Below, one piece after another: positions 40,301-43,300 of a stretch of DNA of 64,000 nucleotides. Below the pieces are notes generated by a model that was given only the letters and a program-made list of their open reading frames with translations, was not told where the DNA came from and made no database searches. Each line of letters begins with the position of its first letter. Positions within the stretch are counted from its first letter, which is position 1. The stretch spans positions 6,552,361-6,616,360 of the forward strand of contig NC_135564.1 of assembly GCF_964340395.1 (NCBI RefSeq), in the 5' to 3' direction. The stretch is from Glandiceps talaboti (Eukaryota; Hemichordata; Enteropneusta; Spengelidae). The translations under genes and the position numbers were made by a program.

Positions 40301-43300
40301 GGGTTTGCGGCCATATGAATTAAAATTAGGAATGTAGGGGTAGAGAGTAAAACCGGACAAAACTAGATGTCTCTTTATCATCCTTCCAGCTTGTGATAAT
40401 TGTGATAATGTTCTTTGTTTTGCAGAGATGAAGTAAGAATCTATACTTATCAAAACCAATGGGTCTGGTGGGTTGCATTGTGAGTACAATTCTATATCTT
40501 TGTGTAGTTTTCCACAACCATTTACAGTAATGGCAACCCATGGGCTCCAGCAGGGTTGGATGAAATAACATAAACTTTACATACTTTTGGCAAATGCATG
40601 CAAATGTCTACAATGTATAGAGAGGTAGTATTATCAACAACATTTATATTGATATTGAAAATTGAAACATTTTTATTCACATCGTTGTTTATCCAGGATT
40701 CTTACATTCATATGTCTGATTGCAATGGCCTGCTGTGATGGTGTAAGGAGGAATTTTCCAATCAACTTCATCTTTCTGGGACTGTTTGTAAGTATTCATC
40801 AGAAAGTAAAGGTCAAATATCAATGTCAAAGGTTAAATTAGGCATCCTATTGTATCCCATCAGGAAAGACCATTTGATGTCCCTTGTATGTAGGGTATTC
40901 ATATTGTATTAGTAGAAATACTGGAAATCCATATAACTTATCTGTGGTATTTCCTTCTAAGTACTTTGGGAATACCAAGACAAAAATCAATTACTTGTTA
41001 TCAGTTCCAACAGGATTGCCCCATGCACATACTACTCAAGGGGATGGTTGTCACCAACTCTACCCAGTACCTTTGAATATTGCAAGTAAAAACTGTTTGT
41101 CATTGATGGCGACTTTCATCTATACAATAACTCAAAAGTGAACATGTCAATATGCCTGCCTATAATTCATATATAGAATGAAAGTTATGTCATATTGTTC
41201 AGCCTTATCAGGCTTCTAAACCACAACTGTATACTAAACCACCCAATACACAGTGCAACTAGCTGATAGTGCAGCAAGAATGTCTTATCTTACAGACATT
41301 CATATAGTAAATGAAATTTTTATTTCAAATGTACTAAATATAAAACAAACCAAAAAGTAACCATAGCAGCAACGTCGTCTCTCACGATGCATCTTAGAAC
41401 TAAAAAATCAACCGTGTTGTTAATTTTTACTAGCAGAAATAATTTCTATGTATCAATGAATCAATGTACTAATTTATTTATATTGCCATGTAACCAGACT
41501 TTATGTGAGGGTGTATTGTTAGGTTGTATGTGCACTGTGTACTCTACAGTAACAGTTCTAATTGCTGCTGGCATCACTGCTGTAAGTCATTACTTAAAGT
41601 CCCTCGATATCAATGCTATCATACCCATGGAATCTCACTTTGGTATAGCCCAGATACAGTTCATGTATATTGCTATCTGCAAACTGGAACATACCAATAT
41701 ACTAGGGTTTCTTACAAGGGGTATTTGTCAAAGGTGTGCATAAGGTATATAATCTTGATGTATATTCTCTTGTTTTTACCTAAAAGAAAATAGAGTGGGG
41801 CAGATAGAAAGATAATAGAATGAGGCAGATAAAAAGATGATAGAAGCTAGCAAACTTGAAACAAAAAGTCATAATACAAAACTTATCAAATTTCAGAAAT
41901 ATAATGAGTAAATCCAAAAACCTTAAATTTCTATGGGTATGATAGACTTGAATTACTTTAGGAGATTGTCATGTTTTAGTTTGTTTCTTCTTTGCATGTT
42001 ACAGACAGTGTGTGAGGGCGTCTTACTGGGCTGTGCATGTAGTACATATGATACTGATGTGGTGCTGATTGCTGCTGGGGTGACTGCTGTAAGTTTGGTT
42101 CTCTGTCAGTATATACATAGGGACACATAATCTGAGTCATACAAGGGATTACTGTTATGGATATGCTACACTGAATGTATTCTCCCCATCCATAAGCTAT
42201 CCCCATCTAAATGGCACAGAAATTCCGACCTGAGGTGGGATTAAGGACAGGTTGAGGCTCATGTAGACACAAATGTGTCCTGGACCTGTCCTGAAACCAT
42301 CCTGACTTAGGACACCTCCAAGAGGTTTCCTGAAACCCTCCTAACTTAGGACATAAGAGGTTTCCTGAAACCTCCTGACTTAGGACACCTCCAAGAGGTT
42401 TCCTGAAAACATCCTGGCTTAGGACACCTCTGAGAGGTTTCCTGAAACCCTCCTGATTTTGACCTATGTGCTGTGTGGACATGTTCCCGTCCTAAAAGTT
42501 CCTAATCCCTGAAGCATATCCTCGGTTTTCTTTTCTTCTAATTCTATACATACAAGATTATGTGTCCCTGTGTATATATCCATGTATTCAGTCAATTCCA
42601 TGACTTTTCATATCTCTCCCTCGTTTGCTATGTTCCATTTTCCATAAAATTAAATCTTGTCATATTGTTATATTTATTCCTACGATGTCTATATGTCATT
42701 TTTACTCCAGCATCAAAGTAATGCATATCAATTTTGGATGAAAAATTATCTGTATAACCCTGTATTGCAATACAAACAAGACTTCAATAGTAGATGAAGA
42801 CTATTCCTGCATGTAAATAGATGGATTATGAAAAGAATTGTATTTGAAGAATGTAATAAACATTATTTATGAAAGACATGATAAACAAAAGAGAAGGTTT
42901 TGAAGCCAAGACTTGGCCAAAGTACATCGGTAATTTATTGGGAACAATTTTACAGTTTCACCTCATGTATTTAGCAAATAAATGACTCCTTCATTATTTA
43001 ATGATCTCTAACATTACACAAGTAATAATGACACTACTCCACATTCTGATTATCCACAGTGCAATCATTTCCTAAAGAGTCTCACATAAGGGTGCCAAGA
43101 TTGTATAAAATGTGTGTGAAAACTTGGCTATCTTGGCCCAAACTGTCAGTCCAAGAGCTGCTTTCAAATAGCACTCCTAGAGTTCAAACTATGTAATCTT
43201 TTGGGGTTTTTTAATCACTACACTGTGTTATATTCAACTTCTATTATTTTCTCATTCAAGACAGACGCAATAAAAAGATATTGTTCAGATTACAAGAATC

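Follow-up and report, generated by a model that had tools for sequence, protein, structure and literature searches.

A Lifeguard/TMBIM gene with two tandemly duplicated coding exons, of which one copy of each is probably chosen at a time

Introduction

A Lifeguard/TMBIM gene in the window (the whole 64-kb stretch of DNA analysed here) carries two adjacent homologous copies of an 84-nt exon, which raises the question of whether a family of ion-leak membrane proteins contains a gene that chooses between two versions of one segment, and what such a choice would change in the protein. The original prediction was that the two copies are probably mutually exclusive, and that the acidic loop encoded by one of them could bear on pH and calcium behaviour and so tune ion leak. 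Tandem duplicated exon substitution is documented in human genes: according to excerpts of PMC9741552, there are 236 such events in 214 genes, they make conservative changes and affect membrane proteins, including ion channels, more often than expected, and terminal exons are over-represented (77 C-terminal of the 236 events). TMBIM, GRINA and FAIM2 are absent from the main text of that paper. The prediction had also held that no mutually exclusive pair is described in this family. This agrees with the excerpted open-access text, which, among the matches listed, contained no mutually exclusive, duplicated or alternative terminal exon pair in TMBIM/Lifeguard genes; the GRINA splice variants in the passages of PMC6719933 differ in their UTRs or lack an N-terminal stretch.

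Results

An intact Lifeguard/TMBIM gene

The gene lies on the + strand and has nine coding exon positions, running from E1 at 37292 to the end of E9b at 47327. E1 (37292-37379) supplies the ATG, with an in-frame TAG upstream at 37256-37258. E2 (39761-39839) encodes TM1 and is followed by E3 (40426-40479) and by E4 (40697-40787), which encodes most of TM2 and the first part of TM3. Downstream of the exon 5 copies, E6 (43520-43561) encodes the rest of TM4, E7 (44078-44167) encodes TM5, and E8 (44714-44761) encodes most of the TM6 segment. All junctions are GT-AG, those of both copies of exons 5 and 9 included, and the reading frame stays open in all four single-choice isoforms (5a or 5b combined with 9a or 9b).

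These four isoforms scored 156.7-161.9 bits against Pfam Bax1-I, above the curated cut-off of 34.1, and each has seven hydrophobic segments, the number expected of a Lifeguard protein. In a PDB search at E ≤ 1, the sole structure matched was YetJ (five distinct chain sequences, best E 5e-6). We take RECS1 to be the closest relative of the window gene. Counting residues in the alignment to BsYetJ, D197 and D225 fell on the di-aspartyl pair and R91, encoded by E4, fell on the TM2 arginine, R60; the roles of these residues in BsYetJ are set out in the excerpts of PMC4416878. Both the di-aspartyl pore pair and the SPE[ED]Y motif, by which the Lifeguard family is defined in the part of PMC5451544 consulted, are present. 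Judged from its sequence, the gene product is a Lifeguard/TMBIM (Bax1-I) protein, for which family likeness predicts an ion-leak role.

In the intron after E1, a (TGTC)n microsatellite with some 33 repeats occupies 37658-37788. Neighbouring gene pieces in the window are MEIOC-like (1707-3170), DNAJC9 (20655-20999), FAST kinase-like (53547-55142) and DUF3456 (57735-58190), the last presumably of Canopy type. Scans of the 64-kb window gave no Rfam match at gathering thresholds and no tRNA.

Exons 5a and 5b are genuine tandem duplicates

The predicted exon boundaries were recovered exactly: 5a spans 41498-41581 and 5b spans 42005-42088 on the + strand, between the end of E4 at 40787 and the start of E6 at 43520. 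Each copy is 84 nt long, in phase 0 on both sides, with an identical GCT/GTAAGT donor, and each encodes 28 residues that form the second part of TM3, a loop and the first part of TM4. The peptides are homologous, with 20 of 28 residues the same (8 residues and 31 of 84 nt differ), and the loop carries S120 and V122 in 5a and D120 and D122 in 5b, as had been claimed. The description of both acceptors as consensus held for 5b and was generous for 5a, whose pyrimidine tract is the poorest of the ten acceptors examined (pyrimidine fraction 0.61, others 0.72-0.83), though a TACTAAT that matches a branch point well lies 25-31 nt upstream of 5a (41467-41473, + strand).

Searching the 64-kb window by tblastn, the 5a isoform found 5b at E 7.5e-8 and the 5b isoform found 5a at 4.6e-8. 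We also simulated unconstrained divergence of exon 5 with the same 31 nucleotide differences. None of the 5000 simulations kept 20 residues (mean 10.4, maximum 18), and a stop arose in 61% of them. Because of these E values and simulations, the likeness of 5a and 5b is not due to chance: the two exons are a genuine tandem duplicate inside an intact Lifeguard/TMBIM gene. Like known mutually exclusive tandem exons, they are adjacent, homologous and equal in length and phase.

Splicing to an AG at 41978-41979, 27 nt upstream of 5b, would change the reading frame. The intron after 5b contains a 24-bp inverted repeat (96%; 42110-42133 and 42555-42578), with an array of about 39-bp units between its arms (42289-42456). 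Together they look like a small mobile element, no second copy of which was found in the 264 kb surveyed.

A second duplicated exon at the end of the gene

A second pair, absent from the original prediction, was found at the end of the gene. Exons 9a (45612-45764) and 9b (47178-47327), both on the + strand, are candidate alternative last coding exons, each with its own stop. Over their shared part, 114 of 147 nt and 42 of 49 residues are identical, and the exons differ by one codon at the end. In tblastn searches with isoforms carrying one exon 9 copy, the remaining copy was recovered with E values of 4e-23 and 4e-19. Both pore aspartates (D197 and D225) are encoded by exon 9, not by exon 5, and 9a and 9b alike keep them, together with the SPEEY motif. 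A single segmental duplication of exons 5-9 was ruled out, as two separate local duplications are required to give the order 5a-5b-6-7-8-9a-9b.

If used alternatively, 9a would serve as the proximal and 9b as the distal last exon, and the choice would swap the end of TM6 and TM7, keeping the pore aspartates and slightly altering the surroundings of SPEEY and the C terminus. No AATAAA or ATTAAA was found between the 9a stop and 9b, and the 3' region of 9a contains variant hexamers only (at 46025, 46029, 46144, 46232 and 46771), so 9a may form its 3' end poorly or be rarely used. Downstream of 9b, AATAAA occurs at 47435, 47559 and 47634. The presumed 9a 3' UTR opens with a 16/48-bp minisatellite (45762-45889), which starts at the stop codon of 9a.

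In a rival reading, both pairs are alternative and the protein forms equivalent, the switch acting as mRNA control, for example because 9a and 9b bring in different 3' UTRs. Consistent with it, 7 of 49 residues distinguish 9a from 9b, most of them by conservative changes, and the sequences after their stops have no common stretch beyond short chance-level matches. However, such control leaves 5a and 5b, with a loop charge that differs by two, unexplained, and we consider it rather unlikely.

Both pairs are constrained in pairwise comparison

By the Nei-Gojobori method, the exon 5 pair gave pS 0.73 and pN 0.23 (pN/pS 0.31), and the exon 9 pair gave pS 0.62 and pN 0.10 (pN/pS 0.16). Differences at codon positions 1, 2 and 3 numbered 7, 6 and 18 in the exon 5 pair and 10, 1 and 22 in the exon 9 pair. 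As for exon 5, the observed residue identity of exon 9 was reached in 0 of 5000 simulations. This pattern of substitution shows purifying selection on 5a/5b and 9a/9b, as a constraint of each pair and not of either copy individually, since the tests are pairwise. The duplications appear to be old, because synonymous sites are near saturation; we claim no date for them.

Such constraint is hard to reconcile with the use of only one copy of each pair, the other being a decaying duplicate. The weakest pyrimidine tract at 5a, the lack of AATAAA or ATTAAA ahead of 9b and a longer branch for 9a than for 9b in the exon 9 tree all lean towards decay, but a dead copy should have acquired stops and lost splice sites at near-saturated synonymous divergence. 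Neither pair has them, and the pN/pS ratios also argue against decay, which we regard as improbable.

Single inclusion of exon 5 preserves membrane topology

Hydrophobic segments were counted on the Kyte-Doolittle scale (19-residue window, threshold 1.3), with the double and skip forms built with 9a only. The results showed seven segments in each single-choice isoform, eight with 5a and 5b together and six with neither, and a second hydrophobicity scale gave the same counts. Exon 5 starts within the TM3 helix and ends within the TM4 helix, so inclusion of a single copy alone keeps the topology. Without either copy the protein would lose a membrane span, and with both it would gain one, in each case inverting all downstream segments. 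From this we strongly infer exclusive use of 5a and 5b.

The predicted exclusive and functional pair is thereby upheld in its constraint and in the seven segments given by single inclusion. What does not support it is the frame: 84 nt equal 28 codons, so neither including both copies nor skipping both disturbs the reading frame, and frame and nonsense-mediated decay therefore do not enforce exclusivity. In Pfam Bax1-I scans of forms made with 9a only, double inclusion scored 163.3 in total, the highest of the six forms scanned, split in two pieces, and double skipping scored 116.5, also in two pieces. The intron between 5a and 5b measures 423 nt, long enough for normal splicing. Complementarity between introns did not exceed the mean of 15 shuffles in any of three pairs (last intron cut to 700 nt), which leaves docking/selector RNA pairing unsupported, though a short pairing could be missed by this comparison. 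Built-in enforcement by frame, a short intron, incompatible sites or docking RNA was thus not found, and regulated repression is a possible means of enforcing the choice. That 5a and 5b are cassette exons, often included together to give an eight-span form, fits the phase-0, in-frame double form and its undiminished total Pfam score but is very improbable, as this form gains exactly one hydrophobic segment, which would invert TM4-TM7, and its Pfam match is broken in two.

Both duplications probably arose in the lineage of the window gene

Searched at the protein level, the whole genome (590 Mb, 47 contigs) gave at least 22 places at E ≤ 10, of which nine lie in the window gene, ten in four other loci, and three more had E values of 0.28-6.7. 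The four other Lifeguard loci are on contig C17 (at 4.25, 2.02 and 19.5 Mb) and contig C1 (at 17.25 Mb). Each gave one last-exon match in this search. Each of the four fetched loci also contains one exon 5 equivalent by low-threshold search and splice-pattern scan, a weak count given that the window exon 5 queries missed known first halves, which the splice-pattern scan alone recovered. No tandem paralogue was detected at E ≤ 0.5 in a total of 200 kb flanking the window, less 5000 bases, and no relatives in viral contigs were confirmed. In the three C17 paralogues (L096, L097 and L098), the exon 5 equivalent also measures 84 nt, split by an intron into 38 + 46, and exons 6-8 are joined; set against the structure of the window gene, this is intron turnover between sister genes, as read from the gene structures.

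By identity, the copies in the window are each other's closest relatives: 5a and 5b share 20 of 28 residues, compared with at most 11 of 28 elsewhere, and 9a and 9b share 42 of 49, compared with at most 33 of 48. Other exon 5 peptide identities (of 28) were 9 for 5b and L096, 17 for L096 and L098, and 13 for L096 and L097. Tree support was 0.936 for 5a with 5b, 0.045 for 9a with 9b, and 0.949 for the node of 9a, 9b and the paralogue L099, on weak bases of 28 (exon 5) and 49 (exon 9) residues. Because the copies are closest to each other, the paralogues had probably already branched off when exons 5 and 9 were duplicated. In these searches the four other Lifeguard loci showed neither duplication, so both probably arose in the lineage of the window gene.

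Candidate RBFOX-type motifs flank the acceptor of exon 5b

An RBFOX-type UGCAUG motif lies 12 to 7 nt before E5b (41993-41998), followed by a GUGUGUG just inside the exon, from +3 (42008-42014), and by a second UGCAUG within it at +29 (42034-42039), all on the + strand. Of the ten acceptors, that of 5b alone has UGCAUG less than 50 nt away, both at -12 and at +29; the expectation is about 0.007 per 20 nt, and the whole window has 32 copies against 28.7 expected. Four of these 32 have GTGTG within the next 20 nt, and GTGTG alone also occurs near the E2 acceptor. The motif reading is post hoc, drawn from eight motif classes scanned in one genome.

Two known systems are similar in arrangement. 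According to the excerpts of PMC3585155 and PMC2880598, RBFOX proteins repress exon 5B of egl-15 through an upstream UGCAUG, UGCAUG before FGFR2 exon 9 represses the exon 9 acceptor, and the weaker exon 8 acceptor of FGFR2 matters for choosing exon 9; SUP-12 binds GU stretches, as the passages of PMC2880598 report. Like the window gene, egl-15 (5A/5B) and FGFR2 (exons 8/9) have an intronic UGCAUG preceding one member of the exon pair, and FGFR2 also has the weaker acceptor on the other exon. They differ in encoding unrelated proteins, and the UGCAUG of 5b is a candidate motif from one genome. The UGCAUG at the 5b acceptor and within 5b, together with the weak 5a tract, suggests RBFOX-type repression of 5b. 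With its better pyrimidine tract, 5b would be the default exon; 5a would be used when an RBFOX-type protein, perhaps together with a partner that binds GU stretches, blocks the acceptor of 5b.

The acidic loop of exon 5b and the pH/calcium sensor

The proposed role of the acidic loop in pH and calcium behaviour stood in part: the doubly acidic loop of 5b is real, but the pH/calcium sensor of the family lies elsewhere, in the di-aspartyl pair of TM6/TM7 (excerpts of PMC4416878 and PMC9206080). Mutating that pair abolishes calcium flux in TMBIM6 and TMBIM1, as stated in the part of PMC9206080 consulted. Since both pore aspartates are encoded by exon 9, the best-known pH/calcium element belongs to the exon 9 pair, neither copy of which lacks it.

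Of 50 bacterial loci fetched, four had no ORF by our filter; in the other 46 relatives, the residue was acidic at the D120 position in 2 and at the D122 position in 7, in a loop alignment that is loose where inserts occur, and Asp occupied the D197 position in all 46; about half of this set are close Acidithiobacillus relatives and hence not independent. The four paralogues in the same genome have T, D, D and D at position 120 and K, R, K and L at position 122. Since Asp120 is common (three of four paralogues), 5a probably lost it and 5b keeps the common state; D122 is peculiar to 5b in comparison with these paralogues. Read from the peptides, the 5b loop has a charge of -2 and the 5a loop a charge of 0, and the paralogue loops range from +1 to -1. 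In the relatives compared, the TM3-TM4 loop varies, and acidity there is not a family hallmark.

A cytosolic N terminus has been mapped for related proteins (excerpts of PMC4416878), from which the TM3-TM4 loop of the window protein is predicted to face the lumen. The choice between 5a and 5b would then swap the lumen-facing tip of the TM3-TM4 hairpin between a neutral (Ser, Val) and a doubly acidic (Asp, Asp) version. It is plausible that the charge of the 5b loop affects cation supply at the lumenal mouth: an acidic tip would raise the local cation concentration there, with a changed leak and pH dependence.

Discussion

The most probable explanation of this locus, held with good but incomplete confidence, is a Lifeguard channel gene with two tandem exon duplications, one copy of each being chosen at a time. 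Such a gene could probably make as many as four versions of one calcium-leak membrane protein. We advance only tentatively the fuller proposal of a two-by-two switch, in which an RBFOX-chosen TM3-TM4 tip, combined with a separately chosen, pore-lining TM6-TM7 end, would yield from one gene four calcium-leak channels that differ in their pH response, a diversity for which relatives use separate genes.

The nearest characterised relatives are channels. BsYetJ (PDB 4pgr and others), a pH-dependent calcium channel, has the Bax1-I domain, pore Asp pair and TM2 Arg of the window protein; in contrast to the window gene, it is encoded by a bacterial gene without an exon switch. RECS1/TMBIM1, a pH-dependent calcium channel as cited in the excerpts of PMC9206080 and PMC12842013, likewise has the Bax1-I domain by sequence. 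In the human tandem duplicated exon substitutions, so far as the excerpted account goes, homologous exons, conservative changes, a membrane protein and a terminal exon recur as in the window gene, which differs from those events in having two pairs within one small gene. Tandem exon swapping is thus already known as a kind, and the locus described here is a real and probably functional case with an unexpected second switch.

Natural swaps of the TM3-TM4 tip alone and of the TM6-TM7 end alone would provide matched channel forms for testing which parts of TMBIM channels, besides the di-aspartyl pair, set leak and pH response. The window gene would also be a gene diversified by exon duplication alongside relatives diversified by gene duplication.
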